Shown: piece by piece, positions 1 to 64,000 of the stretch
How positions within the stretch are numbered: position 1 is the first letter of the stretch
Layout: every line of letters begins with the position of its first letter
Assembly (NCBI GenBank): GCA_947568835.1
Contig: CANOQG010000007.1
Span: 1,364,001-1,428,000, forward strand
Reading direction: 5' to 3'
DNA: 64,000 nucleotides
From: Protonemura montana
Taxonomy: Eukaryota > Arthropoda > Insecta > Plecoptera > Nemouridae
The notes under the pieces: model-generated
Told to the model about the DNA's origin: nothing
Database searches by the model: none
What the model saw: the letters and a program-made list of their open reading frames with translations, nothing else
Position numbers and translations under genes: made by a program

Positions 1-1132
1 TGTCCTGCCCCATGTCCCATGTCCTGCCCCATGTCCTGCCCCATGTCCTGTCCCATGTCCTGCCTCATGTCCTGCCCCATGTCCTGCCCCATGTCCTGCC
101 CCATGTCCTGCCCCATGTCCTGTCCCATGTCCTGCCCCATGTCATGCCCCATGTCCTGCCCCATGTCCTGCCCCATGTCCCATGTCCTGCCCCATGTCCT
201 GCCCTTTGTCCTGTCCCATTTCCTGCCCCATGTCCTGGCCTATGTCCCGCCCCATGTCCTGCCCCATGTCCTGCCCCATGTCCTGCCCCATGTCCTGCCC
301 CATGTCCTGCCCCATGTCCTGCCCTATGTCCTGCCCCATGTCCTGCCCCATGTCCTGCCCCATGTCCTGCCCTATGTCCTGCCCCATGTCCTGCCCCATG
401 TCCTGCCCTATGTCCTGTCCCATGTCCTGTCCCATGTCATGTCCCATGTCCTGCTCCATGTCCTGCCCCATGTCCTGTCCCATGTCCTGCCCCATGTCCT
501 GCCCCATGTCCTGCTTCAAGTCCTGCCTCATGTCCTGCCCCATGTCCTGCCCCATGTCCTGCCCCATGTCCTACCCCATGTCCTGCCCTATGTCCTGTCT
601 TATGTCCTGCCCCATGTCCTGCCCCATGTCCTGCTCCATGTCCTTCCCCTGTCCTGCCCTATGTCCCATGTCCTGCCCCATGTCCTGCCTCATGTCCTGG
701 CCCATGTCCTGCCCTATGTCCTGTCCCATGTCCTGCCCCATTTCCTGCCCCATCTCCTGCTCCATGTCCTGCCCCATGTCCTGCCCCATGTCCCATGTCC
801 TGCCCCATGTCCTGCCCCATGTCCTGTCCCATGTCCTGCCTCATGTCCTGCCCCATGTCCTGCCCCATGTCCTGCCCCATGTCCTGCCCCATGTCCTGTC
901 CCATGTCCTGCCCCATGTCATGCCCCATGTCCTGCCCCATGTCCTGCCCCATGTCCCATGTCCTGCCCCATGTCCTGCCCTTTGTCCTGTCCCATTTCCT
1001 GCCCCATGTCCTGGCCTATGTCCCGCCCCATGTCCTGCCCCATGTCCTGCCCCATGTTCTGCCCCATGTCCTGTCCCATGTCTTGCCCCATGTCCCATGT
1101 CCTGCCCCATGTCCTGCCCCATGTCCTGCCCC

Positions 1133-1156
1133 ATGTCCTTCCCTAAGTCCTGTCCC
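1133..1156 (+). other. Variant pair with TAA (CTTCCCTAAG)
   Basis: ATGTCCTTCCCT is followed by a unit starting AAG instead of ATG, giving TAA at 1144-1146. The same stop-bearing form ends at 8335, 28541 and 35730. In other copies, such as near 4266, 5989 and 11237, the unit reads CTATG and has no stop. Confidence 0.92.
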
Positions 1157-1553
1157 ATGTCCTGCCCCATGTCCTGTCCCATGTCCTGCCTCATGTCCTG
1201 CCCCATGTACTGCCCCATGTCCTGCCCCATGTCCTGCCCCATGTCCTGCCCCATGTCCTGTCCCATGTCCTGCCCCATGTCCTGCCCCATGTCCTGCTTC
1301 AAGTCCTGCCTCATGTCCTGCCCCATGTCCTGCCCCATGTCCTGCCCCATGTCCTGCCCCATGTCCTGCCGTATGTCCTGCACCATGTCCTGCCCCATGT
1401 CCTGCCCTATGTCCTGTCCCATGTCCTGTCCCATGTCATGTCCCATGTCCTGCTCCATGTCCTGCCCCATGTCCTGCCCCATGTCCCATGTCCTGCCCCA
1501 TGATCTGCCCCATGTCCTGCTCCATGTCCTCTCCCTGTCCTGCCCCATGTCCC

Positions 1554-1965
1554 ATGTCGTGCCCCATGTCCTGCCCCATGTCCTGCCCCATGTCCTGCCC
1601 TATGTCCTGTCCCATGTCCTGCCCCATGTCCTGCCCCATGTCCTGCCCTATGTCCTGCCCCTTGTCTTGCCCCATGTCCCATGTCCTGCACCATGTCCTG
1701 CCCCATGTCCTGCCCCATGTCCTGCCCTATGTCCTGCCCCATGTCCTGCCCCATGTCCCATGTCGTGCCCCATGTCCTGCCCCATGTCCTGCCCCATGTC
1801 CTGCCCTATGTCCTGTCCCATGTCCTGCCCCATGTCCTGCCCCATGTCCTGCCCTATGTCCTGCCCCTTGTCTTGCCCCATGTCCCATGTCCTGCACCAT
1901 GTCCTGCCCCATGTCCTGCCCCATGTCCTGCCCTATGTCCTGCCCCATGTCCTGCCCCATTTTCT
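1554..1965 (+). repeat. 206-bp tandem duplication (2 copies)
   Basis: The rare unit ATGTCGTGCCCC starts at 1554 and again at 1760. The following units, including a CCCTTGTCTTG and a GCACCATG, repeat in order. 206 bp equals sixteen 12-bp and two 7-bp units. Unit B (near 8748) has only one copy of this marker. The duplication is inherited in duplicon copy 2 at 28949-29360, so it predates the 27.4-kb event. Confidence 0.9.
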
Positions 1966-3030
1966 GCTCCATGTCCCGCCCCATGTCCTGCTCCATGTCC
2001 CATGTCATGCCCCATGTCCTGCCCCATGTCCTGCCCCATGTCCTGTCCCATGTCCTGCTCCATGTCCTGCCCCATGTCTTACCCCATGTCCCATGTCCTG
2101 CCTCATGTCCTGCCCCATGTCCTGCCCCATATCCTGCCCCATGTCCTGCCCCATGTCCTGCCCCATGTCCTGTCTCATGTCCTGCCCAATGTCCTGCCCC
2201 ATGTCCTGCTCCATGTCCTGCCCCATGTCCTGCCCCATGTCCTGCCCCATGTCCTGCCCCATGTCCTGCCCTATGTCCTGCCCCATGTCCTGCCCCATGT
2301 CCTGCCCCATGTCCTGCCCTATGTCCTGCCCCATGTCCTGCCCCATGTCCTGCCCTATGTCCTGTCCCATGTCCTGTCCCATGTCATGTCCCATGTCCTG
2401 CTCCATGTCCTGCCCCATGTCCTGCCCCATGTCCTGCCCTATGTCCTGCCCCATGTCCTGCCCCATGTCCTGCCCCATGTCCTGCTCCATGTCCTGCCCC
2501 ATGTCCCATGTCCTGCCCCATGTCCTGCCCCATGTCCTGTCCCATGTCCTGCCTCATGTCCTGCCCCATGTACTGCCCCATGTCCTGCCCCATGTCCTGC
2601 CCCATGTCCTGCCCCATGTCCTGTCCCATGTCCTGCCCCATGTCCTGCCCCATGTCCTGCTTCAAGTCCTGCCTCATGTCCTGCCCCATGTCCTGCCCCA
2701 TGTCCTGCCCCATGTCCTGCCCCATGTCCTGCCGTATGTCCTGCACCATGTCCTGCCCCATGTCCTGCCCTATGTCCTGTCCCATGTCCTGTCCCATGTC
2801 ATGTCCCATGTCCTGCTCCATGTCCTGCCCCATGTCCTGCCCCATGTCCCATGTCCTGCCCCATGTCCTGCCCCATGTCCTGCCCCATGTCCTGCTCCAT
2901 GTCCTCCCCCTGTCCTGCCTCATGTCCCATGTCCTTCCCCATGTCCTGCCCCATGTCCTGCCCCATGTCCTGCCCCATGTCCTGTCCCATGTCCTGCCCC
3001 ATGTTTTGCCCCATGTCCTGCCCCATGTCC

Positions 3031-3042
3031 TGTAATATGTCC
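3031..3042 (+). other. AAT marker unit, class TGTAATATG
   Basis: This is one of the most diverged units and the main source of + strand stops. The same class starts at 3031, 10014, 18385, 19838, 21540, 24584, 26286, 30426, 37409, 55705, 61680 and 63121. Sister classes are TGCAATATA (4779, 11750, 14878, 32174, 39145, 42273, 46515, 50757, 58204) and TGCAATATG (6514, 13498, 16626, 26720, 33909, 40893, 44021, 48263, 52505, 56824, 59952). Adjacent markers are often about 1,735-1,760 bp apart, which defines the second-order monomer. Confidence 0.92.
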
Positions 3043-4916
3043 TGTCCCATGTCCTGCCCCATGTCCTGCCCCATGTCCTGTCTCATGTCCTGCCTCATGT
3101 CCTACCCCATGTCCTGCCCTATGTCCTGCCCCATGTCCTGCCCCATGTCCTGCCCCATGTCCTGCCCCATGTCCTGCCCCATGTCCTGCCCCATGTCCTG
3201 CCCCATGGCCCATGTCCTGCCCCATGTCCTGCCCCTTGTCCTGTCCCATTTCCTGCCCCATGTCCTGCCCCATGTCCTGCCCCATGTCCTGCCCCATGTC
3301 CTGCCCCATGTGCTGCCCCATGTCCTGCCCCATGTCTTGCCCCATGTCCCGTGTCCTGCCCCATGTCCTGCCCCATGTCCTGCCCCATGTCCTGCCCTAT
3401 GTCCTGTCTCATGTCCTGCCCCATGTCCTGCCCCATGTCCTGTCCCATGTCATGTCCCTTGTCCTGCTCCATGTCCTGCCCCATGTCCTGCCCCATGGCC
3501 TGCCCTATGTCCTGCCCCATGTCCTGCCCCATGTCCTGCCCCATGTCCTGCCCCATGTCCTGCCCCATGTCCTGCCCCATGTCCCATGTCCTGTCCCATG
3601 TCCTGCCCCATGTCCTGCCCCATGTCCTGCCCCATGTCCTGCCCCATGTCTTGCCCCATGTCCCATGTCCTGCCCCATGTCCTGCCCCATGTCCTACCCC
3701 ATGTCCTGCCCTATGTCCTGTCTTATGTCCTGCCCCATGTCCTGCCCCATGTCCTGCTCCATGTCCTTCCCCTGTCCTGCCCTATGTCCCATGTCCTGCC
3801 CCATGTCCTGCCTCATGTCCTGCCCCATGTCCTGCCCTATGTCCTGTCCCATGTCCTGCCCCATTTCCTGCCCCATCTCCTGCTCCATGTCCTGCCCCAT
3901 GTCCTGCCCCATGTCCCATGTCCTGCCCCATGTCCTGCCCCATGTCCTGTCCCATGTCCTGCCTCATGTCCTGCCCCATGTCCTGCCCCATGTCCTGCCC
4001 CATGTCCTGCCCCATGTCCTGTCCCATGTCCTGCCCCATGTCATGCCCCATGTCCTGCCCCATGTCCTGCCCCATGTCCCATGTCCTGCCCCATGTCCTG
4101 CCCTTTGTCCTGTCCCATTTCCTGCCCCATGTCCTGGCCTATGTCCCGCCCCATGTCCTGCCCCATGTCCTGCCCCATGTTCTGCCCCATGTCCTGTCCC
4201 ATGTCTTGCCCCATGTCCCATGTCCTGCCCCATGTCCTGCCCCATGTCCTGCCCCATGTCCTTCCCTATGTCCTGTCCCATGTCCTGCCCCATGTCCTGT
4301 CCCATGTCCTGCCTCATGTCCTGCCCCATGTACTGCCCCATGTCCTGCCCCATGTCCTGCCCCATGTCCTGCCCCATGTCCTGTCCCATGTCCTGCCCCA
4401 TGTCCTGCCCCATGTCCTGCTTCAAGTCCTGCCTCATGTCCTGCCCCATGTCCTGCCCCATGTCCTGCCCCATGTCCTGCCGTATGTCCTGCACCATGTC
4501 CTGCCCCATGTCCTGCCCTATGTCCTGTCCCATGTCCTGTCCCATGTCATGTCCCATGTCCTGCTCCATGTCCTGCCCCATGTCCTGCCCCATGTCCCAT
4601 GTCCTGCCCCATGTCCTGCCCCATGTCCTGCCCCATGTCCTGCTCCATGTCCTCCCCCTGTCCTGCCTCATGTCCCATGTCCTTCCCCATGTCCTGCCCC
4701 ATGTCCTGCCCCATGTCCTGCCCCATGTCCTGTCCCATGTCCTGCCCCATGTTTTGCCCCATGTCCTGCCCCATGTCCTGCAATATATCCTGTCCCATGT
4801 CCTGCCCCATGTCCTGCCCCATGTCCTGTCTCATGTCCTGCCTCATGTCCTACCCCATGTCCTGCCCTATGTCCTGCCCCATGTCCTGCCCCATGTCCTG
4901 CCCCATGTCCTGCCCC

Positions 4917-4927
4917 ATGAAAGCCCC
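4917..4927 (+). other. Aberrant 11-bp unit ATGAAAGCCCC
   Basis: TCCT of the normal unit is replaced by AAA, shifting the frame and making TGA at 4918-4920. No intermediate form is seen. It occurs only here and, through the 27,395-bp duplication, at 32312. It is a good unique marker for the two duplicon copies. Confidence 0.95.
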
Positions 4928-7526
4928 ATGTCCTGCCCCATGTCCTGCCCCATGTCCTGCCCCATGTCCTGCCCCATGTCCTGCCCCATGGCCCATGTCC
5001 TGCCCCATGTCCTGCCCCTTGTCCTGTCCCATTTCCTGCCCCATGTCCTGCCCCATGTCCTGCCCCATGTCCTGCCCCATGTCCTGCCCCATGTCCTGCC
5101 CCATGTCTTGCCCCATGTCCCGTGTCCTGCCCCATGTCCTGCCCCATGTCCTGCCCCATGTCCTGCCCTATGTCCTGTCTCATGTCCTGCCCCATGTCCT
5201 GCCCCATGTCCTGTCCCATGTCATGTCCCTTGTCCTGCTCCATGTCCTGCCCCATGTCCTGCCCCATGGCCTGCCCTATGTCCTGCCCCATGTCCTGCCC
5301 CATGTCCTGCCCCATGTCCTGCCCCAGGTCCTGCCCCATGTCCTGCCCCATGTCCCATGTCCTGTCCCATGTCTTGCCCCATGTCCCATGTCCTGCCCCA
5401 TGTCCTGCCCCATGTCCTACCCCATGTCCTGCCCTATGTCCTGTCTTATGTCCTGCCCCATGTCCTGCCCCATGTCCTGCTCCATGTCCTTCCCCTGTCC
5501 TGCCCTATGTCCCATGTCCTGCCCCATGTCCTGCCTCATGTCCTGCCCCATGTCCTGCCCTATGTCCTGTCCCATGTCCTGCCCCATTTCCTGCCCCATC
5601 TCCTGCTCCATGTCCTGCCCCATGTCCTGCCCCATGTCCCATGTCCTGCCCCATGTCCTGCCCCATGTCCTGTCCCATGTCCTGCCTCATGTCCTGCCCC
5701 ATGTCCTGCCCCATGTCCTGCCCCATGTCCTGCCCCATGTCCTGTCCCATGTCCTGCCCCATGTCATGCCCCATGTCCTGCCCCATGTCCTGCCCCATGT
5801 CCCATGTCCTGCCCCATGTCCTGCCCTTTGTCCTGTCCCATTTCCTGCCCCATGTCCTGGCCTATGTCCCGCCCCATGTCCTGCCCCATGTCCTGCCCCA
5901 TGTTCTGCCCCATGTCCTGTCCCATGTCTTGCCCCATGTCCCATGTCCTGCCCCATGTCCTGCCCCATGTCCTGCCCCATGTCCTTCCCTATGTCCTGTC
6001 CCATGTCCTGCCCCATGTCCTGTCCCATGTCCTGCCTCATGTCCTGCCCCATGTACTGCCCCATGTCCTGCCCCATGTCCTGCCCCATGTCCTGCCCCAT
6101 GTCCTGTCCCATGTCCTGCCCCATGTCCTGCCCCATGTCCTGCTTCAAGTCCTGCCTCATGTCCTGCCCCATGTCCTGCCCCATGTCCTGCCCCATGTCC
6201 TGCCCCATGTCCTGCCGTATGTCCTGCACCATGTCCTGCCCCATGTCCTGCCCTATGTCCTGTCCCATGTCCTGTCCCATGTCATGTCCCATGTCCTGCT
6301 CCATGTCCTGCCCCATGTCCTGCCCCATGTCCCATGTCCTGCCCCAGGTCCTGCCCCATGTCCTGCCCCATGTCCTGCTCCATGTCCTCCCCCTGTCCTG
6401 CCTCATGTCCCATGTCCTTCCCCATGTCCTGCCCCATGTCCTGCCCCATGTCCTGCCCCATGTCCTGTCCCATGTCCTGCCCCATGTTTTGCCCCATGTC
6501 CTGCCCCATGTCCTGCAATATGTCCTGTCCCATGTCTTGCCCCATGTCCTGCCCCATGTCCTGTCTCATGTCCTGCCTCATGTCCTACCCCATGTCCTGC
6601 CCTATGTCCTGCCCCATGTCCTGCCCCATGTCCTGCCCCATGTCCTGCCCCATGTCCTGCCCCATGTCCTGCCCCATGTCCTGCCCCATGGCCCATGTCC
6701 TGCCCCATGTCCTGCCCCTTGTCCTGTCCCATTTCCTGCCCCATGTCCTGCCCCATGTCCTGCCCCATGTCCTGCCCCATGTCCTGCCCCATGTCCTGCC
6801 CCATGTCCTGCCCCATGTCTTGCCCCATTTCCCGTGTCCTGCCCCATGTCCTGCCCCATGTCCTGCCCCATGTCCTGCCCTATGTCCTGTCTTATGTCCT
6901 GCCCCATGTCCTGCCCCATGTCCTGTCCCATGTCATGTCCCATGTCCTGCTCCATGTCCTGCCCCATGTCCTGCCCCATGGCCTGCCCTATGTCCTGCCT
7001 CATGTCCTGCCCCATGTCCTGCCCCATGTCCTGCCCCATGTCCTGCCCCATGTCCTGCCCCATGTCCCATGTCCTGCCCCATGTCCTGCCCCATGTCCTG
7101 CCCCATGTCCTGCCCCATGTCCTGCCCTATGTCCTGTCCCATGTCCTGCCCCATTTCCTGCCCCATCTCCTGCTCCATGTCCTGCCCCATGTCCTGCCCC
7201 ATGTCCCATGTCCTGCCCCATGTCCTGCCCCATGTCCTGTCCCATGTCCTGCCTCATGTCCTGCCCCATGTCCTGCCCCATGTCCTGCCCCATGTCCTGC
7301 CCCATGTCCTGTCCCATGTCCTGCCCCATGTCATGCCCCATGTCCTGCCCCATGTCCTGCCCCATGTCCCATGTCCTGCCCCATGTCCTGCCCTTTGTCC
7401 TGTCCCATTTCCTGCCCCATGTCCTGGCCTATGTCCCGCCCCATGTCCTGCCCCATGTCCTGCCCCATGTCCTGCCCCATGTCCTGCCCCATGTCCTGCC
7501 CCATGTCCTGCCCTATGTCCTGCCCC

Positions 7527-7538
7527 ATGTCCTAACCC
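7527..7538 (+). other. Variant unit ATGTCCTAACCC
   Basis: Two adjacent changes create TAA at 7533-7535. The same unit is found at 27733-27744 and 34922-34933, matching offsets 20,206 and 27,395 bp. Unit A has the normal form at about 343, so the change separates unit A from B-derived sequence. Confidence 0.93.
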
Positions 7539-10500
7539 ATGTCCTGCCCCATGTCCTGCCCTATGTCCTGCCCCATGTCCTGCCCCATGTCCTGCCCTAT
7601 GTCCTGTCCCATGTCCTGTCCCATGTCATGTCCCATGTCCTGCTCCATGTCCTGCCCCATGTCCTGTCCCATGTCCTGCCCCATGTCCTGCCCCATGTCC
7701 TGCTTCAAGTCCTGCCTCATGTCCTGCCCCATGTCCTGCCCCATGTCCTGCCCCATGTCCTACCCCATGTCCTGCCCTATGTCCTGTCTTATGTCCTGCC
7801 CCATGTCCTGCCCCATGTCCTGCTCCATGTCCTTCCCCTGTCCTGCCCTATGTCCCATGTCCTGCCCCATGTCCTGCCTCATGTCCTGGCCCATGTCCTG
7901 CCCTATGTCCAGTCCCATGTCCTGCCCCATTTCCTGCCCCATCTCCTGCTCCATGTCCTGCCCCATGTCCTGCCCCATGTCCCATGTCCTGCCCCATGTC
8001 CTGCCCCATGTCCTGTCCCATGTCCTGCCTCATGTCCTGCCCCATGTCCTGCCCCATGTCCTGCCCCATGTCCTGCCCCATGTCCTGTCCCATGTCCTGC
8101 CCCATGTCATGCCCCATGTCCTGCCCCATGTCCTGCCCCATGTCCCATGTCCTGCCCCATGTCCTGCCCTTTGTCCTGTCCCATTTCCTGCCCCATGTCC
8201 TGGCCTATGTCCCGCCCCATGTCCTGCCCCATGTCCTGCCCCATGTTCTGCCCCATGTCCTGTCCCATGTCTTGCCCCATGTCCCATGTCCTGCCCCATG
8301 TCCTGCCCCATGTCCTGCCCCATGTCCTTCCCTAAGTCCTGTCCCATGTCCTGCCCCATGTCCTGTCCCATGTCCTGCCTCATGTCCTGCCCCATGTACT
8401 GCCCCATGTCCTGCCCCATGTCCTGCCCCATGTCCTGCCCCATGTCCTGTCCCATGTCCTGCCCCATGTCCTGCCCCATGTCCTGCTTCAAGTCCTGCCT
8501 CATGTCCTGCCCCATGTCCTGCCCCATGTCCTGCCCCATGTCCTGCCCCATGTCCTGCCGTATGTCCTGCACCATGTCCTGCCCCATGTCCTGCCCTATG
8601 TCCTGTCCCATGTCCTGTCCCATGTCATGTCCCATGTCCTGCTCCATGTCCTGCCCCATGTCCTGCCCCATGTCCCATGTCCTGCCCCATGATCTGCCCC
8701 ATGTCCTGCTCCATGTCCTCTCCCTGTCCTGCCCCATGTCCCATGTCGTGCCCCATGTCCTGCCCCATGTCCTGCCCCATGTCCTGCCCTATGTCCTGTC
8801 CCATGTCCTGCCCCATGTCCTGCCCCATGTCCTGCCCTATGTCCTGCCCCTTGTCTTGCCCCATGTCCCATGTCCTGCACCATGTCCTGCCCCATGTCCT
8901 GCCCCATGTCCTGCCCTATGTCCTGCCCCATGTCCTGCCCCATTTTCTGCTCCATGTCCCGCCCCATGTCCTGCTCCATGTCCCATGTCATGCCCCATGT
9001 CCTGCCCCATGTCCTGCCCCATGTCCTGTCCCATGTCCTGCTCCATGTCCTGCCCCATGTCTTACCCCATGTCCCATGTCCTGCCTCATGTCCTGCCCCA
9101 TGTCCTGCCCCATATCCTGCCCCATGTCCTGCCCCATGTCCTGCCCCATGTCCTGTCTCATGTCCTGCCCAATGTCCTGCCCCATGTCCTGCTCCATGTC
9201 CTGCCCCATGTCCTGCCCCATGTCCTGCCCCATGTCCTGCCCCATGTCCTGCCCTATGTCCTGCCCCATGTCCTGCCCCATGTCCTGCCCCATGTCCTGC
9301 CCTATGTCCTGCCCCATGTCCTGCCCCATGTCCTGCCCTATGTCCTGTCCCATGTCCTGTCCCATGTCATGTCCCATGTCCTGCTCCATGTCCTGCCCCA
9401 TGTCCTGCCCCATGTCCTGCCCTATGTCCTGCCCCATGTCCTGCCCCATGTCCTGCCCCATGTCCTGCTCCATGTCCTGCCCCATGTCCCATGTCCTGCC
9501 CCATGTCCTGCCCCATGTCCTGTCCCATGTCCTGCCTCATGTCCTGCCCCATGTACTGCCCCATGTCCTGCCCCATGTCCTGCCCCATGTCCTGCCCCAT
9601 GTCCTGTCCCATGTCCTGCCCCATGTCCTGCCCCATGTCCTGCTTCAAGTCCTGCCTCATGTCCTGCCCCATGTCCTGCCCCATGTCCTGCCCCATGTCC
9701 TGCCCCATGTCCTGCCGTATGTCCTGCACCATGTCCTGCCCCATGTCCTGCCCTATGTCCTGTCCCATGTACTGTCCCATGTCATGTCCCATGTCCTGCT
9801 CCATGTCCTGCCCCATGTCCTGCCCCATGTCCCATGTCCTGCCCCATGTCCTGCCCCATGTCCTGCCCCATGTCCTGCTCCATGTCCTCCCCCTGTCCTG
9901 CCTCATGTCCCATGTCCTTCCCCATGTCCTGCCCCATGTCCTGCCCCATGTCCTGCCCCATGTCCTGTCCCATGTCCTGCCCCATGTTTTGCCCCATGTC
10001 CTGCCCCATGTCCTGTAATATGTCCTGTCCCATGTCCTGCCCCATGTCCTGCCCCATGTCCTGTCTCATGTCCTGCCTCATGTCCTACCCCATGTCCTGC
10101 CCTATGTCCTGCCCCATGTCCTGCCCCATGTCCTGCCCCATGTCCTGCCCCATGTCCTGCCCCATGTCCTGCCCCATGGCCCATGTCCTGCCCCATGTCC
10201 TGCCCCTTGTCCTGTCCCATTTCCTGCCCCATGTCCTGCCCCATGTCCTGCCCCATGTCCTGCCCCATGTCCTGCCCCATGTCCTGCCCCATGTCCTGCC
10301 CCATGTCTTGCCCCATGTCCCGTGTCCTGCCCCATGTCCTGCCCCATGTCCTGCCCCATGTCCTGCCCTATGTCCTGTCTCATGTCCTGCCCCATGTCCT
10401 GCCCCATGTCCTGTCCCATGTCATGTCCCTTGTCCTGCTCCATGTCCTGCCCCATGTCCTGCCCCATGGCCTGCCCTATGTCCTGCCCCATGTCCTGCCC

Positions 10501-11176
10501 CATGTCCTGCCCCATGTCCTGCCCCATGTCCTGCCCCATGTCCTGCCCCATGTCCCATGTCCTGTCCCATGTCCTGCCCCATGTCCTGCCCCATGTCCTG
10601 CCCCATGTCCTGCCCCATGTCTTGCCCCATGTCCCATGTCCTGCCCCATGTCCTGCCCCATGTCCTACCCCATGTCCTGCCCTATGTCCTGTCTTATGTC
10701 CTGCCCCATGTCCTGCCCCATGTCCTGCTCCATGTCCTTCCCCTGTCCTGCCCTATGTCCCATGTCCTGCCCCATGTCCTGCCTCATGTCCTGCCCCATG
10801 TCCTGCCCTATGTCCTGTCCCATGTCCTGCCCCATTTCCTGCCCCATCTCCTGCTCCATGTCCTGCCCCATGTCCTGCCCCATGTCCCATGTCCTGCCCC
10901 ATGTCCTGCCCCATGTCCTGTCCCATGTCCTGCCTCATGTCCTGCCCCATGTCCTGCCCCATGTCCTGCCCCATGTCCTGCCCCATGTCCTGTCCCATGT
11001 CCTGCCCCATGTCATGCCCCATGTCCTGCCCCATGTCCTGCCCCATGTCCCATGTCCTGCCCCATGTCCTGCCCTTTGTCCTGTCCCATTTCCTGCCCCA
11101 TGTCCTGGCCTATGTCCCGCCCCATGTCCTGCCCCATGTCCTGCCCCATGTTCTGCCCCATGTCCTGTCCCATGTC

Positions 11177-17432: not shown

Positions 17433-17560
17433 CTGCCCCATGTCATGCCCCATGTCCTGCCCCATGTCCTGCCCCATGTCCCATGTCCTGCCCCATGTCC
17501 TGCCCTTTGTCCTGTCCCATTTCCTGCCCCATGTCCTGGCCTATGTCCCGCCCCATGTCC

Positions 17561-20249: not shown

Positions 20250-20385
20250 TCCCATGTCATGTCCCTTGTCCTGCTCCATGTCCTGCCCCATGTCCTGCCC
20301 CATGGCCTGCCCTATGTCCTGCCCCATGTCCTGCCCCATGTCCTGCCCCATGTCCTGCCCCATGTCCTGCCCCATGTCCTGCCCC

Positions 20386-48700: not shown

Positions 48701-49975
48701 CCATGTCCTGCCCCATGTCCTGCCCCATGGCCTGCCCTATGTCCTGCCTCATGTCCTGCCCCATGTCCTGCCCCATGTCCTGCCCCATGTCCTGCCCCAT
48801 GTCCTGCCCCATGTCCCATGTCCTGCCCCATGTCCTGCCCCATGTCCTGCCCTTTGTCCTGCCCCATGTCCTGCCCTATGTCCTGTCCCATGTCCTGCCC
48901 CATTTCCTGCCCCATCTCCTGCTCCATGTCCTGCCCCATGTCCTGCCCCATGTCCCATGTCCTGCCCCATGTCCTGCCCCATGTCCTGTCCCATGTCCTG
49001 CCTCATGTCCTGCCCCATGTCCTGCCCCATGTCCTGCCCCATGTCCTGCCCCATGTCCTGTCCCATGTCCTGCCCCATGTCATGCCCCATGTCCTGCCCC
49101 ATGTCCTGCCCCATGTCCCATGTCCTGCCCCATGTCCTGCCCTTTGTCCTGTCCCATTTCCTGCCCCATGTCCTGGCCTATGTCCCGCCCCATGTCCTGC
49201 CCCATGTCCTGCCCCATGTCCTGCCCCATGTCCTGCCCCATGTCCTGCCCCATGTCCTGCCCTATGTCCTGCCCCATGTCCTGCCCCATGTCCTGCCCCA
49301 TGTCCTGCCCTATGTCCTGCCCCATGTCCTGCCCCATGTCCTGCCCTATGTCCTGTCCCATGTCCTGTCCCATGTCATATCCCATGTCCTGCTCCATGTC
49401 CTGCCCCATGTCCTGCCCCATGTCCTGCCCTATGTCCTGCCCCATGTCCTGCCCCATGTCCTGCCCCATGTCCTGCTCCATGTCCTGCCCCATGTCCCAT
49501 GTCCTGCCCCATGTCCTGCCCCATGTCCTGTCCCATGTCCTGCCTCATGTCCTGCCCCATGTACTGCCCCATGTCCTGCCCCATGTCCTGCCCCATGTCC
49601 TGCCCCATGTCCTGTCCCATGTCCTGCCCCATGTCCTGCCCCATGTCCTGCTTCAAGTCCTGCCTCATGTCCTGCCCCATGTCCTGCCCCATGTCCTGCC
49701 GCATGTCCTGCCCCATGTCCTGCCGTATGTCCTGCACCATGTCCTGCCCCATGTCCTGCCCTATGTCCTGTCCCATGTCCTGTCCCATGTCATGTCCCAT
49801 GTCCTGCTCCATGTCCTGCCCCATGTCCTGCCCCATGTCCCATGTCCTGCCCCATGTCCTGCCCCATGTCCTGCCCCATGTCCTGCTCCATGTCCTCCCC
49901 CTGTCCTGCCTCATGTCCCATGTCCTTCCCCATGTCCTGCCCCATGTCCTGCCCCATGTCCTGCCCCATGTCCTG
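45734..49975 (+). repeat. 4,242-bp block, second tandem copy
   Basis: It begins at a jump from the equivalent of 18338 back to the equivalent of 14097. The junction is seamless: it falls between complete 12-bp units, as expected of unequal exchange in register. All landmarks match the first copy at +4,242 bp. Confidence 0.93.
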
Positions 49976-52900: not shown

Positions 52901-54217
52901 CCTGCCCCATGTCCTGTCCCATGTCATGTCCCATGTCCTGCTCCATGTCCTGCCCCATGTCCTGCCCCATGGCCTGCCCTATGTCCTGCCTCATGTCCTG
53001 CCCCATGTCCTGCCCCATGTCCTGCCCCATGTCCTGCCCCATGTCCTGCCCCATGTCCCATGTCCTGCCCCATGTCCTGCCCCATGTCCTGCCCTTTGTC
53101 CTGCCCCATGTCCTGCCCTATGTCCTGTCCCATGTCCTGCCCCATTTCCTGCCCCATCTCCTGCTCCATGTCCTGCCCCATGTCCTGCCCCATGTCCCAT
53201 GTCCTGCCCCATGTCCTGCCCCATGTCCTGTCCCATGTCCTGCCTCATGTCCTGCCCCATGTCCTGCCCCATGTCCTGCCCCATGTCCTGCCCCATGTCC
53301 TGTCCCATGTCCTGCCCCATGTCATGCCCCATGTCCTGCCCCATGTCCTGCCCCATGTCCCATGTCCTGCCCCATGTCCTGCCCTTTGTCCTGTCCCATT
53401 TCCTGCCCCATGTCCTGGCCTATGTCCCGCCCCATGTCCTGCCCCATGTCCTGCCCCATGTCCTGCCCCATGTCCTGCCCCATGTCCTGCCCCATGTCCT
53501 GCCCTATGTCCTGCCCCATGTCCTGCCCCATGTCCTGCCCCATGTCCTGCCCTATGTCCTGCCCCATGTCCTGCCCCATGTCCTGCCCTATGTCCTGTCC
53601 CATGTCCTGTCCCATGTCATATCCCATGTCCTGCTCCATGTCCTGCCCCATGTCCTGCCCCATGTCCTGCCCTATGTCCTGCCCCATGTCCTGCCCCATG
53701 TCCTGCCCCATGTCCTGCTCCATGTCCTGCCCCATGTCCCATGTCCTGCCCCATGTCCTGCCCCATGTCCTGTCCCATGTCCTGCCTCATGTCCTGCCCC
53801 ATGTACTGCCCCATGTCCTGCCCCATGTCCTGCCCCATGTCCTGCCCCATGTCCTGTCCCATGTCCTGCCCCATGTCCTGCCCCATGTCCTGCTTCAAGT
53901 CCTGCCTCATGTCCTGCCCCATGTCCTGCCCCATGTCCTGCCGCATGTCCTGCCCCATGTCCTGCCGTATGTCCTGCACCATGTCCTGCCCCATGTCCTG
54001 CCCTATGTCCTGTCCCATGTCCTGTCCCATGTCATGTCCCATGTCCTGCTCCATGTCCTGCCCCATGTCCTGCCCCATGTCCCATGTCCTGCCCCATGTC
54101 CTGCCCCATGTCCTGCCCCATGTCCTGCTCCATGTCCTCCCCCTGTCCTGCCTCATGTCCCATGTCCTTCCCCATGTCCTGCCCCATGTCCTGCCCCATG
54201 TCCTGCCCCATGTCCTG
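49976..54217 (+). repeat. 4,242-bp block, third tandem copy
   Basis: This is identical to the two preceding copies as far as I can see. Unlike them it reads through at its right end into sequence matching 18339 onward, so it restores the order of the large duplicon after 8,484 extra bases (2 x 4,242). Confidence 0.92.
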
Positions 54218-56248
54218 TCCCATGTCCTGCCCCATGTTTTGCCCCATGTCCTGCCCCATGTCCTGTTATATGTCCTGTCCCATGTCCTGCCCCATGTCCT
54301 GCCCCATGTCCTGTCTCATGTCCTGCCTCATGTCCTACCCCATGTCCTGCCCTATGTCCTGCCCCATGTCCTGCCCCATGTCCTGCCCCATGTCCTGCCC
54401 CATGTCCTGCCCCATGTCCTTCCCCATGTCCTGCCCCATGGCCCATGTCCTGCCCCATGTCCTGCCCCTTGTCCTGTCCCATTTCCTGCCCCATGTCCTG
54501 CCCCATGTCCTGCCCCATGTCCTGCCCCATGTCCTGCCCCATGTCCTGCCCCATGTCCTGCCCCATGTCTTGCCCCATGTCCCGTGTCCTGCCCCATGTC
54601 CTGCCCCATGTCCTGCCCCATGTCCTGCCCTATGTCCTGTCTCATGTCCTGCCCCATGTCCTGCCCCATGTCCTGCCCCATGTCCTGCCCCATGTCCTGC
54701 CCCATGTCCTGCCCCATGTCCTGCCCCATGTCCTGCCCCATGTCCCATGTCCTGCCCCATGTCCTGCCCCATGTCCTGCCCCATGTCCTGCCCCATGTCC
54801 TGCCCCATGTCTTGCCCCATGTCCCATGTCCTGCCCCATGTCCTGCCCCATGTCCTACCCCATGTCCTGCCCTATGTCCTGTCTTATGTCCTGCCCCATG
54901 TCCTGCCCCATGTCCTGCTCCATGTCCTTCCCCTGTCCTGCCCTATGTCCCATGTCCTGCCCCATGTCCTGCCTCATGTCCTGCCCCATGTCCTGCCCTA
55001 TGTCCTGTCCCATGTCCTGCCCCATTTCCTGCCCCATCTCCTGCTCCATGTCCTGCCCCATGTCCTGCCCCATGTCCTGCCCCATGTCCTGTCCCATGTC
55101 CTGCCTCATGTCCTGCCCCATGTCCTGCCCCATGTCCTGCCCCATGTCCTGCCCCATGTCCTGTCCCATGTCCTGCCCCATGTCATGCCCCATGTCCTGC
55201 CCCATGTCCTGCCCCATGTCCCATGTCCTGCCCCATGTCCTGCCCTTTGTCCTGTCCCATTTCCTGCCCCATGTCCTGGCCTATGTCCCGCCCCATGTCC
55301 TGCCCCATGTCCTGCCCCATGTTCTGCCCCATGTCCTGTCCCATGTCTTGCCCCATGTCCCATGTCCTGCCCCATGTCCTGCCCCATGTCCTGCCCCATG
55401 TCCTTCCCTATGTCCTGCACCATGTCCTGCCCCATGTCCTGCCCTATGTCCTGTCCCATGTCCTGTCCCATGTCATGTCCCATGTCCTGCTCCATGTCCT
55501 GCCCCATGTCCTGCCCCAAGTCCCATGTCCTGCCCCATGTCCTGCCCCATGTCCTGCCCCATGTCCTGCTCCATGTCCTCCCCCTGTCCTGCCTCATGTC
55601 CCATGTCCTTCCCCATGTCCTGCCCCATGTCCTGCCCCATGTCCTGCCCCATGTCCTGTCCCATGTCCTGCCCCATGTTTTGCCCCATGTCCTGCCCCAT
55701 GTCCTGTAATATGTCCTGTCCCATGTCCTGCCCCATGTCCTGCCCCATGTCCTGTCTCATGTCCTGCCTCATGTCCTACCCCATGTCCTGCCCTATGTCC
55801 TGCCCCATGTCCTGCCCCATGTCCTGCCCCATGTCCTGCCCCATGTCCTGCCCCATGTCCTGCCCCATGTCCTGCCCCATGGCCCATGTCCTGCCCCATG
55901 TCCTGCCCCTTGTCCTGTCCCATTTCCTGCCCCATGTCCTGCCCCATGTCCTGCCCCATGTCCTGCCCCATGTCCTGCCCCATGTCCTGCCCCATGTCCT
56001 GCCCCATGTCTTGCCCCATGTCCCGTGTCCTGCCCCATGTCCTGCCCCATGTCCTGCCCCATGTCCTGCCCTATGTCCTGTCTCATGTCCTGCCCCATGT
56101 CCTGCCCCATGTCCTGTCCCATGTCATGTCCCTTGTCCTGCTCCATGTCCTGCCCCATGTCCTGCCCCATGGCCTGCCCTATGTCCTGCCCCATGTCCTG
56201 CCCCATGTCCTGCCCCATGTCCTGCCCCATGTCCTGCCCCATGTCCTG
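54218..56248 (+). repeat. Continuation of the large duplicon (matches 18339-20381)
   Basis: The offset is 35,879 bp, which equals 27,395 plus 8,484, and becomes 35,867 after one lost 12-bp unit near 55.0 kb. Private changes are TGTTATATG at 54264 in place of TGTAATATG, and a CCAAGTCCC near 55518 in place of CCATGTCCC. It ends at 56249, where TGTCCC replaces TGCCCC and another block begins. Confidence 0.88.
54264..54275 (+). other. Private AAT-marker variant TGTTATATG
   Basis: This is the only marker of this form in the window. It corresponds to TGTAATATG at 18385. The A to T change removes the TAA, which lets the open frame around it continue to 55709. Confidence 0.92.
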
Positions 56249-56584
56249 TCCCATGTCCTGCCCCATGTCCTGCCCCATGTCCTGCTTCAAGTCCTGCCTC
56301 ATGTCCTGCCCCATGTCCTGCCCCATGTCCTGCCCCATGTCCTGCCCCATGTCCTGCCCCATGTCCTGCCCCATGTCCTGCCCCATGTCCTGCCCCATGT
56401 CCTGCCCCATGTCCTGTCCCATGTCCTGCCCCATGTCCTGCCCCATGTCCTGCTTCAAGTCCTGCCTCATGTCCTGCCCCATGTCCTGCCCCATGTCCTG
56501 CCCCATGTCCTGCCCCATGTCCTGCCGTATGTCCTGCACCATGTCCTGCCCCATGTCCTGCCCTATGTCCTGTCCCATGTCCTG
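56249..56584 (+). repeat. 168-bp tandem duplication (2 copies) at a block junction
   Basis: CTTCAAG landmarks lie at 56285 and 56453, exactly fourteen 12-bp units apart. This pair sits right at the switch between the 18339-20381-like block and the 13091-like block, so it is probably a by-product of that exchange. Confidence 0.88.
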
Positions 56585-59500
56585 TCCCATGTCATGTCCC
56601 ATGTCCTGCTCCATGTCCTGCCCCATGTCCAGCCCCATGTCCCATGTCCTGCCCCAGGTCCTGCCCCATGTCCTGCCCCATGTCCTGCTCCATGTCCTCC
56701 CCCTGTCCTGCCTCATGTCCCATGTCCTTCCCCATGTCCTGCCCCATGTCCTGCCCCATGTCCTGCCCCATGTCCTGTCCCATGTCCTGCCCCATGTTTT
56801 GCCCCATGTCCTGCCCCATGTCCTGCAATATGTCCTGTCCCATGTCTTGCCCCATGTCCTGCCCCATGTCCTGTCTCATGTCCTGCCTCATGTCCTACCC
56901 CATGTCCTGCCCTATGTCCTGCCCCATGTCCTGCCCCATGTCCTGCCCCATGTCCTGCCCCATGTCCTGCCCCATGTCCTGCCCCATGTCCTGCCCCATG
57001 GCCCATGTCCTGCCCCATGTCCTGCCCCTTGTCCTGTCCCATTTCCTGCCCCATGTCCTGCCCCATGTCCTGCCCCATGTCCTGCCCCATGTCCTGCCCC
57101 ATGTCCTGCCCCATGTCCTGCCCCATGTCTTGCCCCATTTCCCGTGTCCTGCCCCATGTCCTGCCCCATGTCCTGCCCCATGTCCTGCCCTATGTCCTGT
57201 CTTATGTCCTGCCCCATGTCCTGCCCCATGTCCTGTCCCATGTCATGTCCCATGTCCTGCTCCATGTCCTGCCCCATGTCCTGCCCCATGGCCTGCCCTA
57301 TGTCCTGCCTCATGTCCTGCCCCATGTCCTGCCCCATGTCCTGCCCCATGTCCTGCCCCATGTCCTGCCCCATGTCCCATGTCCTGCCCCATGTCCTGCC
57401 CCATGTCCTGCCCCATGTCCTGCCCCATGTCCTGCCCTATGTCCTGTCCCATGTCCTGCCCCATTTCCTGCCCCATCTCCTGCTCCATGTCCTGCCCCAT
57501 GTCCTGCCCCATGTCCCATGTCCTGCCCCATGTCCTGCCCCATGTCCTGTCCCATGTCCTGCCTCATGTCCTGCCCCATGTCCTGCCCCATGTCCTGCCC
57601 CATGTCCTGCCCCATGTCCTGTCCCATGTCTTGCCCCATGTCCCATGTCCTGCCCCATGTCCTGCCCCATGTCCTGCCCCATGTCCTTCCCTATGTCCTG
57701 TCCCATGACCTGCCCCATGTCCTGTCCCATGTCCTGCCTCATGTCCTGCCCCATGTACTGCCCCATGTCCTGCCCCATGTCCTGCCCCATGTCCTGCCCC
57801 ATGTCCTGTCCCATGTCCTGCCCCATGTCCTGCCCCATGTCCTGCTTCAAGTCCTGCCTCATGTCCTGCCCCATGTCCTGCCCCATGTCCTGCCCCATGT
57901 CCTGCCGTATGTCCTGCACCATGTCCTGCCCCATGTCCTGCCCTATGTCCTGTCCCATGTCCTGTCCCATGTCATGTCCCATGTCCTGCTCCATGTCCTG
58001 CCCCATGTCCTGCCCCATGTCCCATGTCCTGCCCCATGTCCTGCCCCATGTCCTGCCCCATGTCCTGCTCCATGTCCTCCCCCTGTCCTGCCTCATGTCC
58101 CATGTCCTTCCCCACGTCCTGCCCCATGTCCTGCCCCATGTCCTGCCCCATGTCCTGTCCCATGTCCTGCCCCATGTTTTGCCCCATGTCCTGCCCCATG
58201 TCCTGCAATATATCCTGTCCCATGTCCTGCCCCATGTCCTGCCCCATGTCCTGTCTCATGTCCTGCCTCATGTCCTACCCCATGTCCTGCCCTATGTCCT
58301 GCCCCATGTCCTGCCCCATGTCCTGCCCCATGTCCTGCCCCATGTCCTGCCCCATGTCCTGCCCCATGTCCTGCCCCATGTCCTGCCCCATGTCCTGCCC
58401 CATGTCCTGCCCCATGGCCCATGTCCTGCCCCATGTCCTGCCCCTTGTCCTGTCCCATTTCCTGCCCCATGTCCTGCCCCATGTCCTGCCCCATGTCCTT
58501 ACCCATGTCCTGCCCCATGTCCTGCCCCATGTCCTGCCCCATGTCTTGCCCCATGTCCCGTGTCCTGCCCCATGTCCTGCCCCATGTCCTGCCCCATGTC
58601 CTGCCCTATGTCCTGTCTCATGTCCTGCCCCATGTCCTGCCCCATGTCCTGTCCCATGTCATGTCCCTTGTCCTGCTCCATGTCCTGCCCCATGTCCTGC
58701 CCCATGGCCTGCCCTATGTCCTGCCCCATGTCCTGCCCCATGTCCTGCCCCATGTCCTGCCCCATGTCCTGCCCCATGTCCTGCCCCATGTCCCATGTCC
58801 TGTCCCATGTCTTGCCCCATGTCCCATGTCCTGCCCCATGTCCTGCCCCATGTCCTACCCCATGTCCTGCCCTATGTCCTGTCTTATGTCCTGCCCCATG
58901 TCCTGCCCCATGTCCTGCTCCATGTCCTTCCCCTGTCCTGCCCTATGTCCCATGTCCTGCCCCATGTCCTGCCTCATGTCCTGCCCCATGTCCTGCCCTA
59001 TGTCCTGTCCCATGTCCTGCCCCATTTCCTGCCCCATCTCCTGCTCCATGTCCTGCCCCATGTCCTGCCCCATGTCCCATGTCCTGCCCCATGTCCTGCC
59101 CCATGTCCTGTCCCATGTCCTGCCTCATGTCCTGCCCCATGTCCTGCCCCATGTCCTGCCCCATGTCCTGCCCCATGTCCTGTCCCATGTCCTGCCCCAT
59201 GTCATGCCCCATGTCCTGCCCCATGTCCTGCCCCATGTCCCATGTCCTGCCCCATGTCCTGCCCTTTGTCCTGTCCCATTTCCTGCCCCATGTCCTGGCC
59301 TATGTCCCGCCCCATGTCCTGCCCCATGTCCTGCCCCATGTTCTCCCCCATGTCCTGTCCCATGTCTTGCCCCATGTCCCATGTCCTGCCCCATGTCCTG
59401 CCCCATGTCCTGCCCCATGTCCTTCCCTATGTCCTGTCCCATGTCCTGCCCCATGTCCTGTCCCATGTCCTGCCTCATGTCCTGCCCCATGTACTGCCCC

Positions 59501-62500
59501 ATGTCCTGCCCCATGTCCTGCCCCATGTCCTGCCCCATGTCCTGTCCCATGTCCTGCCCCATGTCCTGCCCCATGTCCTGCTTCAAGTCCTGCCTCATGT
59601 CCTGCCCCATGTCCTGCCCCATGTCCTGCCCCATGTCCTGCCCCATGTCCTGCCGTATGTCCTGCACCATGTCCTGCCCCATGTCCTGCCCTATGTCCTG
59701 TCCCATGTCCTGTCCCATGTCATGTCCCATGTCCTGCTCCATGTCCTGCCCCATGTCCTGCCCCATGTCCCATGTCCTGCCCCAGGTCCTGCCCCATGTC
59801 CTGCCCCATGTCCTGCTCCATGTCCTCCCCCTGTCCTGCCTCATGTCCCATGTCCTTCCCCATGTCCTGCCCCATGTCCTGCCCCATGTCCTGCCCCATG
59901 TCCTGTCCCATGTCCTGCCCCATGTTTTGCCCCATGTCCTGCCCCATGTCCTGCAATATGTCCTGTCCCATGTCTTGCCCCATGTCCTGCCCCATGTCCT
60001 GTCTCATGTCCTGCCTCATGTCCTACCCCATGTCCTGCCCTATGTCCTGCCCCATGTCCTGCCCCATGTCCTGCCCCATGTCCTGCCCCATGTCCTGCCC
60101 CATGTCCTGCCCCATGTCCTGCCCCATGGCCCATGTCCTGCCCCATGTCCTGCCCCTTGTCCTGTCCCATTTCCTGCCCCATGTCCTGCCCCATGTCCTG
60201 CCCCATGTCCTGCCCCATGTCCTGCCCCATGTCCTGCCCCATGTCCTGCCCCATGTCTTGCCCCATTTCCCGTGTCCTGCCCCATGTCCTGCCCCATGTC
60301 CTGCCCCATGTCCTGCCCTATGTCCTGTCTTATGTCCTGTCCCATGTCCTGCCCCATGTCCTGTCCCATGTCATGTCCCATGTCCTGCTCCATGTCCTGC
60401 CCCATGTCCTGCCCCATGGCCTGCCCTATGTCCTGCCTCATGTCCTGCCCCATGTCCTGCCCCATGTCCTGCCCCATGTCCTGCCCCATGTCCTGCCCCA
60501 TGTCCCATGTCCTGCCCCATGTCCTGCCCCATGTCCTGCCCTTTGTCCTGCCCCATGTCCTGCCCTATGTCCTGTCCCATGTCCTGCCCCATTTCCTGCC
60601 CCATCTCCTGCTCCATGTCCTGCCCCATGTCCTGCCCCATGTCCTGTCCCATGTCCTGCCTCATGTCCTGCCCCATGTCCTGCCCCATGTCCTGCCCCAT
60701 GTCCTGCCCCATGTCCTGTCCCATGTCCTGCCCCATGTCATGCCCCATGTCCTGCCCCATGTCCTGCCCCATGTCCCATGTCCTGCCCCATGTCCTGCCC
60801 TTTGTCCTGTCCCATTTCCTGCCCCATGTCCTGGCCTATGTCCCGCCCCATGTCCTGCCCCATGTCCTGCCCCATGTCCTGCCCCATGTCCTGCCCCATG
60901 TCCTGCCCCATGTCCTGCCCTATGTCCTGCCCCATGTCCTGCCCCATGTCCTGCCCCATGTCCTGCCCTATGTCCTGCCCCATGTCCTGCCCCATGTCCT
61001 GCCCTATGTCCTGTCCCATGTCCTGTCCCATGTCATATCCCATGTCCTGCTCCATGTCCTGCCCCATGTCCTGCCCCATGTCCTGCCCTATGTCCTGCCC
61101 CATGTCCTGCCCCATGTCCTGCCCCATGTCCTGCTCCATGTCCTGCCCCATGTCCCATGTCCTGCCCCATGTCCTGCCCCATGTCCTGTCCCATGTCCTG
61201 CCTCATGTCCTGCCCCATGTACTGCCCCATGTCCTGCCCCATGTCCTGCCCCATGTCCTGCCCCATGTCCTGTCCCATGTCCTGCCCCATGTCCTGCCCC
61301 ATGTCCTGCTTCAAGTCCTGCCTCATGTCCTGCCCCATGTCCTGCCCCATGTCCTGCCGCATGTCCTGCCCCATGTCCTGCCGTATGTCCTGCACCATGT
61401 CCTGCCCCATGTCCTGCCCTATGTCCTGTCCCATGTCCTGTCCCATGTCATGTCCCATGTCCTGCTCCATGTCCTGCCCCATGTCCTGCCCCATGTCCCA
61501 TGTCCTGCCCCATGTCCTGCCCCATGTCCTGCCCCATGTCCTGCTCCATGTCCTCCCCCTGTCCTGCCTCATGTCCCATGTCCTTCCCCATGTCCTGCCC
61601 CATGTCCTGCCCCATGTCCTGCCCCATGTCCTGTCCCATGTCCTGCCCCATGTTTTGCCCCATGTCCTGCCCCATGTCCTGTAATATGTCCTGTCCCATG
61701 TCCTGCCCCATGTCCTGCCCCATGTCCTGTCTCATGTCCTGCCTCATGTCCTACCCCATGTCCTGCCCTATGTCCTGCCCCATGTCCTGCCCCATGTCCT
61801 GCCCCATGTCCTGCCCCATGTCCTGCCCCATGTCCTTCCCCATGTCCTGCCCCATGGCCCATGTCCTGCCCCATGTCCTGCCCCTTGTCCTGTCCCATTT
61901 CCTGCCCCATGTCCTGCCCCATGTCCTGCCCCATGTCCTGCCCCATGTCCTGCCCCATGTCCTGCCCCATGTCCTGCCCCATGTCTTGCCCCATGTCCCG
62001 TGTCCTGCCCCATGTCCTGCCCCATGTCCTGCCCCATGTCCTGCCCTATGTCCTGTCTCATGTCCTGCCCCATGTCCTGCCCCATGTCCTGCCCCATGTC
62101 CTGCCCCATGTCCTGCCCCATGTCCTGCCCCATGTCCTGCCCCATGTCCTGCCCCATGTCCCATGTCCTGCCCCATGTCCTGCCCCATGTCCTGCCCCAT
62201 GTCCTGCCCCATGTCCTGCCCCATGTCTTGCCCCATGTCCCATGTCCTGCCCCATGTCCTGCCCCATGTCCTACCCCATGTCCTGCCCTATGTCCTGTCT
62301 TATGTCCTGCCCCATGTCCTGCCCCATGTCCTGCTCCATGTCCTTCCCCTGTCCTGCCCTATGTCCCATGTCCTGCCCCATGTCCTGCCTCATGTCCTGC
62401 CCCATGTCCTGCCCTATGTCCTGTCCCATGTCCTGCCCCATTTCCTGCCCCATCTCCTGCTCCATGTCCTGCCCCATGTCCTGCCCCATGTCCTGCCCCA

Positions 62501-64000
62501 TGTCCTGTCCCATGTCCTGCCTCATGTCCTGCCCCATGTCCTGCCCCATGTCCTGCCCCATGTCCTGCCCCATGTCCTGTCCCATGTCCTGCCCCATGTC
62601 ATGCCCCATGTCCTGCCCCATGTCCTGCCCCATGTCCCATGTCCTGCCCCATGTCCTGCCCTTTGTCCTGTCCCATTTCCTGCCCCATGTCCTGGCCTAT
62701 GTCCCGCCCCATGTCCTGCCCCATGTCCTGCCCCATGTTCTGCCCCATGTCCTGTCCCATGTCTTGCCCCATGTCCCATGTCCTGCCCCATGTCCTGCCC
62801 CATGTCCTGCCCCATGTCCTTCCCTATGTCCTGCACCATGTCCTGCCCCATGTCCTGCCCTATGTCCTGTCCCATGTCCTGTCCCATGTCATGTCCCATG
62901 TCCTGCTCCATGTCCTGCCCCATGTCCTGCCCCATGTCCCATGTCCTGCCCCATGTCCTGCCCCATGTCCTGCCCCATGTCCTGCTCCATGTCCTCCCCC
63001 TGTCCTGCCTCATGTCCCATGTCCTTCCCCATGTCCTGCCCCATGTCCTGCCCCATGTCCTGCCCCATGTCCTGTCCCATGTCCTGCCCCATGTTTTGCC
63101 CCATGTCCTGCCCCATGTCCTGTAATATGTCCTGTCCCATGTCCTGCCCCATGTCCTGCCCCATGTCCTGTCTCATGTCCTGCCTCATGTCCTACCCCAT
63201 GTCCTGCCCTATGTCCTGCCCCATGTCCTGCCCCATGTCCTGCCCCATGTCCTGCCCCATGTCCTGCCCCATGTCCTGCCCCATGTCCTGCCCCATGGCC
63301 CATGTCCTGCCCCATGTCCTGCCCCTTGTCCTGTCCCATTTCCTGCCCCATGTCCTGCCCCATGTCCTGCCCCATGTCCTGCCCCATGTCCTGCCCCATG
63401 TCCTGCCCCATGTCCTGCCCCATGTCTTGCCCCATGTCCCGTGTCCTGCCCCATGTCCTGCCCCATGTCCTGCCCCATGTCCTGCCCTATGTCCTGTCTC
63501 ATGTCCTGCCCCATGTCCTGCCCCATGTCCTGTCCCATGTCATGTCCCTTGTCCTGCTCCATGTCCTGCCCCATGTCCTGCCCCATGGCCTGCCCTATGT
63601 CCTGCCCCATGTCCTGCCCCATGTCCTGCCCCATGTCCTGCCCCATGTCCTGCCCCATGTCCTGCCCCATGTCCCATGTCCTGCCCCATGTCCTGCCCCA
63701 TGTCCTGCCCCATGTCCTGCCCCATGTCCTGCCCCATGTCTTGCCCCATGTCCCATGTCCTGCCCCATGTCCTGCCCCATGTCCTACCCCATGTCCTGCC
63801 CTATGTCCTGTCTTATGTCCTGCCCCATGTCCTGCCCCATGTCCCATGTCCTGCCCCATGTCCTGCCCCATGTCCTGCCCCATGTCCTGCCCCATGTCCT
63901 GCCCCATGTCTTGCCCCATGTCCCATGTCCTGCCCCATGTCCTGCCCCATGTCCTACCCCATGTCCTGCCCTATGTCCTGTCTTATGTCCTGCCCCATGT
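56417..64000 (+). repeat. Block homologous to 13091-20717
   Basis: The offset is 43,326 bp up to about 60.6 kb, then 43,295 after a 31-bp loss (one 7-bp and two 12-bp units), then 43,283 after a 12-bp loss near 62.4 kb. It contains a fifth, slightly shortened version of the 4,242-bp block (57423-61633, 4,211 bp). A private T to C change at about 58114 makes ACGT, one of the rare CpGs. It runs off the window end. Confidence 0.88.
63669..64000 (+). repeat. 170-bp tandem duplication, third occurrence, cut by window end
   Basis: CTACCCC landmarks lie at 63784 and 63954, 170 bp apart. The second copy is incomplete because the window stops. Confidence 0.88.

Follow-up and report, generated by a model that had tools for sequence, protein, structure and literature searches.

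How much higher-order structure can be built on a monomer of only 12 bp? The question is raised by a stretch of the genome of the plecopteran Protonemura montana, positions 1,364,001-1,428,000 of contig C18 (5,535,519 bp), in an assembly of 258,480,905 bp and 34 contigs, 11 of which exceed 12 Mb. We refer to this whole 64,000-bp stretch as the window. The original prediction, made from the letters of the window alone, described a nested higher-order repeat with levels listed side by side. The nested structure on the 12-bp unit is borne out, and the periods had been read exactly, but the levels do not stand side by side. The window is organised around a genuine higher-order repeat (HOR), about 150 units or ~1.75 kb long, runs of which were copied later to give the 3-7-kb and 27-kb levels. 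We consider the window very probably a segment of a multi-megabase, non-coding satellite array shaped by nested copying, through in-register exchange or block amplification.

The entire window (1-64000, plus strand) is one single-strand satellite array, built from the 12-bp unit ATGTCCTGCCCC together with variants of 7 and 11 bp. The array runs past both window ends, and the two adjoining 10-kb stretches are 100% satellite. Tandem Repeats Finder reports a single row (16-64000, period 12, 5,481.6 copies), a long head-to-tail array of one monomer, and the same satellite fills 15 of the 16 stretches sampled along C18. Wrap-around decomposition yields 5,484 units of 71 kinds, 2,821 of them exactly ATGTCCTGCCCC; 5,071 units measure 12 bp, 347 measure 7 bp and 65 measure 11 bp, with one 4-bp cut end. 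Bases 12 positions apart are identical at a rate of 0.872. The GC content is 0.62-0.63 with a constant skew, and only 117 CpG dinucleotides are present where 4,821 are expected, because the 12-bp unit contains none. The window contains no tRNA genes and no Rfam matches at gathering scores, and exact 24-mers have no match in viral and prokaryote sequence collections.

A unit-wise, information-weighted autocorrelation stays at the level of shuffled sequence for lags of 1-59 units, with a marginal value at lag 7 (0.388, compared with a top shuffle value of 0.377), and peaks at 147, 149 and 150 units (0.52-0.62). Further peaks lie at 268, 363, 598 and 2,349 units. The null comprises 20 shuffles scored at every seventh lag (mean 0.322, highest 0.377). 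As a reference we use a 150-unit copy of 1,748 bp at 14872-16619 (plus strand), which has 46 matches including itself. These 46 alignments, many of them end to end, tile 57,501 of the 64,000 bp. They score 71-502 against a threshold of 70, while three shuffled windows reach 19, 22 and 19, so that a multimer of monomers repeats here in tandem and in register. The 21 near-full-length matches, reference included, span 1,678-1,778 bp at a base identity of 0.961-1.000, a figure that sets aside gaps of up to 152 bases. The multimer copies are thus more alike than monomers compared at 12 bp (0.961-1.000 vs 0.872). A canonical HOR of one length across the array is not what we find: copy length varies over 1,678-1,778 bp, the remaining copies in the window carry whole-block deletions, and further domains of C18 have different periods. 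Since one 150-unit HOR accounts for most of the window, we reject a collection of unrelated periods.

The larger blocks are visible in the distances between identical words. Exact 100-mer pairs are most frequent at a lag of 27,395 bp (17,738 pairs), followed by 4,242 (8,432), 3,128 (5,987), 6,984 (3,816), 4,746 (2,672) and 1,702 bp (1,741). Every diagonal that had been predicted, at 1,702, 3,128, 4,242, 4,746, ~7,000 (found at 6,971-6,984) and 27,395 bp, is therefore present. All of the following blocks lie on the plus strand. A 4,242-bp block occurs in three tandem copies at 41445-54217, with no mismatch over 8,531 bp. A 3,128-bp block is present in two copies at 11153-17432, matching over 3,152 bp, and the pair recurs at 38548-44827 (6 or 7 mismatches). 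At a lag of 4,746 bp, two segments of 2,771 bp each within 19108-26624 are identical. The ~7-kb level spans 3133-14304, where 3133-4919 pairs with 10104-11890 (lag 6,971, 1 mismatch) and 5064-7320 pairs with 12048-14304 (lag 6,984, 2,257 bp, 2 or 3 mismatches). A further pair of 3,052 bp each, at a lag of 7,416, lies within 53197-63664 and has 2 mismatches.

The longest diagonal joins 1-18338 to 27396-45733 at the lag of 27,395 bp: 18,338 bp with 6 mismatches, or 99.97% identity. A duplicon of 27.4 kb had been proposed. The 27.4-kb distance is right and the matching length is 18.3 kb; the match fades both beyond that point and over the 2 kb that precede the window (identity 0.53-0.86 per kb). 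The two copies diverge at 3 per 10,000 bases, in five units, and the 18-kb duplication is recent relative to the divergence of the units. At each of the 6 differing bases in these five units it is the second copy (27396-45733) that departs from the consensus, never the first.

Two smaller-scale features had been proposed as levels of the hierarchy. Local duplications of 170-240 bp do exist, for example at 1536-1960 (plus strand, lag 206), but they are sporadic: the window has 8 exact duplications that measure 110 bp or more and have lags of 168-434, the further ones near 20362, 23092, 25108, 26310, 29025, 56181 and 63645, and we reject a pervasive 170-240-bp level. Likewise, one AAT trinucleotide had been assigned to each ~1.4-1.75-kb monomer. 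The 39 AAT in the window are indeed often spaced by 1,380-1,759 bp; spacings of 172, 241, 434, 674, 846 and 2,654 bp, among others, rule out a strict count of one per monomer.

To what extent could such repetition arise by chance? Words of 100, 200, 500 and 1,000 bp are repeated at a distance at fractions of 0.978, 0.948, 0.864 and 0.736 of the window positions, far above the 0.021-0.033, 0, 0 and 0 obtained for five shuffles of the same units. The 500-mers thus repeat at 86% of positions, compared with 0% in all five shuffles, and the dot-plot is not the uniform background without long diagonals that would have spoken against nesting. Markov strings of order 1 and order 2 (two each) reach at most 0.39, 0.001, 0 and 0. 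Two order-4 strings reach 0.92, 0.48, 0.015 and 0, with ranges of 0.91-0.92 for the 100-mers and 0.003-0.015 for the 500-mers. The nulls for word repetition, autocorrelation and tiling together lead us to reject a chance origin of the repeat structure.

The window shows 12-bp units organised into a ~150-unit, 1.75-kb HOR, runs of which have been copied as 3-7-kb blocks and once as an 18-kb block placed 27.4 kb away. The probable mechanism is homologous unequal exchange that stays in register and acts on long tracts, either between sister chromatids or between homologues; break-induced replication combined with gene conversion, which would leave the same register, is the alternative. Exchange of long tracts would keep HOR copies near-identical without homogenising single units one by one. 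Unit boundaries stay aligned in each of the 189 diagonals that reach 800 bp or more, and none of the 2,442 units near the 222 boundary clusters is an odd-length unit. The aligned register would be the trace expected of homology-guided unequal exchange or of replication restart in the same register. Block boundaries are spread all along the HOR, and a preference for 7-bp units is rejected (mean distance 60.0 vs 61.2 at random). The layering may then be a record of turnover that requires no sequence-specific function, and the array probably represents heterochromatin of an insect chromosome.

Several points weigh against this account. Much of the 100-mer repetition is reproduced by the order-4 Markov strings, and the evidence therefore rests on words of at least 500 bp. 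The aligned register fits crossing-over, break-induced replication and conversion alike, and many of the 222 boundary clusters are copies of a single event and so not independent. Assembly error would most readily affect the 27-kb level and the switches of strand described below; the safest levels are the 1.75-kb HOR and the blocks of 3-7 kb. Heterochromatin and lack of function are what we infer from the sequence.

The satellite extends far beyond the window. Of sixteen 10-kb samples of C18, 15 are satellite (coverage 0.999-1.000) and the first is a 35-bp repeat, which passes directly into the 12-bp satellite at ~10,390. The 35-bp unit, interrupted by an AT-rich segment of ~59 bp, occupies the left end of C18 (1-10389) and also the starts of C20 and C27; it has 209 exact copies in the first 10 kb of C18 and 1,233 genome-wide. 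At 5.50 Mb and at the right end of C18, as well as at the start of C8, there is a degenerate, CTCCAGACACTCTGC-like repeat of roughly 30 bp. According to probes and samples, the orientation of the satellite on C18 is plus between 20 kb and 2.65 Mb, minus at 2.70-4.55 Mb, plus at 4.75-5.35 Mb and minus at 5.40 Mb, which amounts to at least three strand switches. On C17 (1,170,000 bp) every probe from the start to 1.161 Mb is satellite, and the last 4,000 bases are TTAGG repeat. Exact 24-mer counts (138,296 plus 37,481), taken with their densities, give an assembly total of about 6.7-7.2 Mb. Elsewhere, among the matches listed, arrays of 0.4-1.1 kb occur in unrelated flanks on C2, C3 and C4, a broken array on C11, and an array on C12 that runs from ~17.031 Mb to 17.034 Mb or further; on C12 a shared marker also reappears at 17.20-17.22 Mb.

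The HOR of the window is local to parts of this array. It covers 95, 98, 84 and 94% of the four C18 samples between 1.20 and 1.44 Mb, 69% of the 0.80-Mb sample, and 7-35% of the remaining ten, mainly through the middle of the HOR (about units 37-108). On the plus strand, a 22-mer marker of the HOR occurs 85 times, always on C18 (19 at 0.778-0.877 Mb and 66 at 1.218-1.469 Mb); on the minus strand it occurs 58 times, and the 15 of these among the matches listed are at 4.10-4.18 Mb of C18. In this minus-strand domain 5 marker pairs are separated by 40,062 bp, while 200 jittered sets never exceed 2. Part of the family is also present, in minus orientation, at 4.50-4.55 Mb. Marker lags of 408,310, 419,082 and 453,891 bp are represented by 3 pairs each, a number also reached by 16 of the 200 jittered sets, and as a further level they are only suggestive. 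In each of the 15 satellite samples from C18, 150-mers are repeated (0.57-0.93, compared with 0.000 in shuffles), the periods being mostly different from sample to sample, and similarity drops outside local domains. Local amplification has therefore occurred many times along C18. Divergence from the unit is 0.13-0.17 per base at 1.10-1.16 Mb of C17, towards the telomere, as judged from four 120-base probes, 0.05 at 0.9 Mb of C17, and 0.044-0.055 in the 10-kb samples of C18. From these few and short C17 probes, the pattern appears to be one of an older edge and a homogenised core.

Could part of this architecture be a product of the assembly? Unpurged haplotypes or mis-joined satellite contigs might account for part of the 27.4-kb duplication, of the mismatch-free 4,242-bp triplicate and of the changes of strand along C18. 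The absence of any mismatch over 8,531 bp in the 4,242-bp copies, and only 6 over 18,338 bp in the 27.4-kb copies, would fit such an origin, as would the three or more strand changes, the partial recurrence of the window's family on the minus strand at 4.50-4.55 Mb and the round lengths of several contigs (1,170,000 and 890,000), which suggest manual cuts. However, the 27.4-kb copies do differ, both in five units, each time by departures of the second copy from consensus, and in their flanks. Kilobase repeats are present in 15 of 15 satellite samples of C18, and the HOR itself is therefore no local error. We regard an assembly origin of these features as unlikely.

It is similarly improbable that the array is a centromere or pericentromere in which HOR order would be kept for kinetochore function, as argued for alpha satellite. 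An HOR core with a more diverged edge (0.13-0.17 at 1.10-1.16 Mb of C17 vs 0.05 at 0.9 Mb) and the about 6.7-7.2 Mb of satellite in the genome would suit a centromere. However, the C17 array reaches within a few kb of the TTAGG telomere, and at least part of the satellite is therefore terminal; in addition, the hits on C2, C3, C4, C11 and C12, among the matches listed, are few and mostly short.

Somewhat less probable again is that C18 represents a genuine chromosome arm, sex chromosome or B chromosome composed almost wholly of satellite, with separately homogenised HOR domains and large strand switches. If so, C18 would preserve traces of block amplification on five or six scales, namely 0.2, 1.75, 3-7 and 27-40 kb and, only suggestively, 0.41-0.45 Mb, and the tract-length spectrum of satellite turnover would be readable from one sequence.

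We give little credence to a spread inside a mobile element, with the big array as an expanded part of that element. Such a spread might leave behind short arrays like those of 0.4-1.1 kb that are scattered over C2, C3 and C4. However, the flanks of the arrays on C2 (two), C3, C4 (two), C11 and C12, compared all against all, share no common element; the matches found are a tandem-repeat match between C4 and C11, one of 58 bp at 86% between C12 and C11, and one locus entered twice. A mobile-element origin is thus rejected for these dispersed arrays.

That the array codes for a repetitive protein is close to inconceivable: the window does hold 23 open reading frames of at least 700 amino acids, all on the plus strand and the longest of 8,916, but the consensus unit is free of stops in all six frames, so that long frames are automatic and carry no weight, 412 of the 5,484 units are 7 or 11 bp long and shift the frame about every 13 units, and the array continues for megabases; the stop-free unit and the frame-shifting variants lead us to reject a coding repeat. 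The 8,916-amino-acid frame lies at 34934-61684 (plus strand), with overlapping frames as by-products of the same stop-free 12-bp unit.

A number of other features of the assembly were recorded. CCTAA repeats at the start of C16 and TTAGG repeats at the end of C17, together with the mitochondrial contig C34, are in keeping with an insect genome. The probed ends of C1 (right) and C13 (left) consist of pure GGTTT/AAACC repeats, and at the left end of C16 the TTAGG-type telomere passes into CCAAA repeats. By their sequence, the ends of C1, C13 and C16 would carry a telomere variant (TTTGG). Read with the invertebrate mitochondrial code, C34 (15,885 bp) shows ND2, COX1 and COX2 one after another, an order typical of insects. 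A nuclear copy of mitochondrial DNA lies at 5,760,925-5,777,755 of C4, where 4,338 bp around COX1 are 99.84% identical to C34, and further COX1 pieces are found on C4, C12, C16 and C3. Rfam identifies 5S rRNA genes at the starts of C11 (70-188 of the probed stretch, plus strand, 116.7 bits) and C23 (143-261 of the probed stretch, minus strand, 96.5 bits).

The original prediction had also suggested that such depth on a short monomer is unfamiliar, a claim that finds no support. According to PMC4022460, human HSat2 on chromosome 1 has a 1.77-kb unit and HSat3/DYZ1 (HSat3A6) on the Y a 3.6-kb unit, both derived from the 5-bp CATTC; this comparison is one of unit sizes. As in the array studied here, these are multi-megabase arrays of a very short ancestral unit, with a kilobase repeat unit that differs between arrays (PMC4022460). 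The closeness of 1.77 kb to ~1.75 kb is a coincidence of size. The unit of the window is 12 bp, GC-rich and without CpG, the organism is unrelated, and with ATGTCCTGCCCC in place of a CATTC-derived unit the likeness is one of organisation only. The region superposes several block sizes up to 27-40 kb; HSat2 and HSat3 are compared by published unit sizes alone, so no record is claimed.

Other known satellites resemble the array in part. In alpha satellite, too, units differ more within the HOR than HOR copies do mutually (about 70% vs 97-100%; PMC8122249), and HOR families are local. Its unit is 171 bp instead of 12 bp. On the human Y, for example, its HOR has 34 units (PMC8122249) instead of 150. 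In FabTR-2 of Lathyrus sativus HOR patterns also differ between arrays of one short-unit satellite; its unit is longer (49 bp), it belongs to a plant, and nested blocks do not figure in the portion of the published description compared (PMC7004042). TmSat1 and TmSat2 of Tribolium madens are likewise insect satellites that occupy megabase regions and switch orientation within arrays. Their units derive from a sequence of about 110 bp, and their symmetries extend over a few to tens of kb (PMC13081366), compared with strand stretches of up to megabases on C18, which may in part be assembly joins. Among publications containing exact 12-mers of the unit in one literature collection, none concerns a satellite, as judged from titles and the starts of abstracts. 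A search of one collection for 12-bp satellites with HORs, whose near-synonym wording is restrictive, returned none.

The organisation is that of a short-monomer satellite with higher-order structure, a kind already known, and rich in superposed block sizes. It leaves the knowledge of satellites unchanged in kind. Automatic gene callers may annotate giant genes in such an array, given open reading frames of up to 8,916 amino acids. The array provides a clear, assembled non-primate example of very short units building nested higher-order satellites. Its simple unit makes duplication boundaries and private variants readable, so that growth models such as unequal exchange, break-induced replication and block amplification could be fitted to one array.

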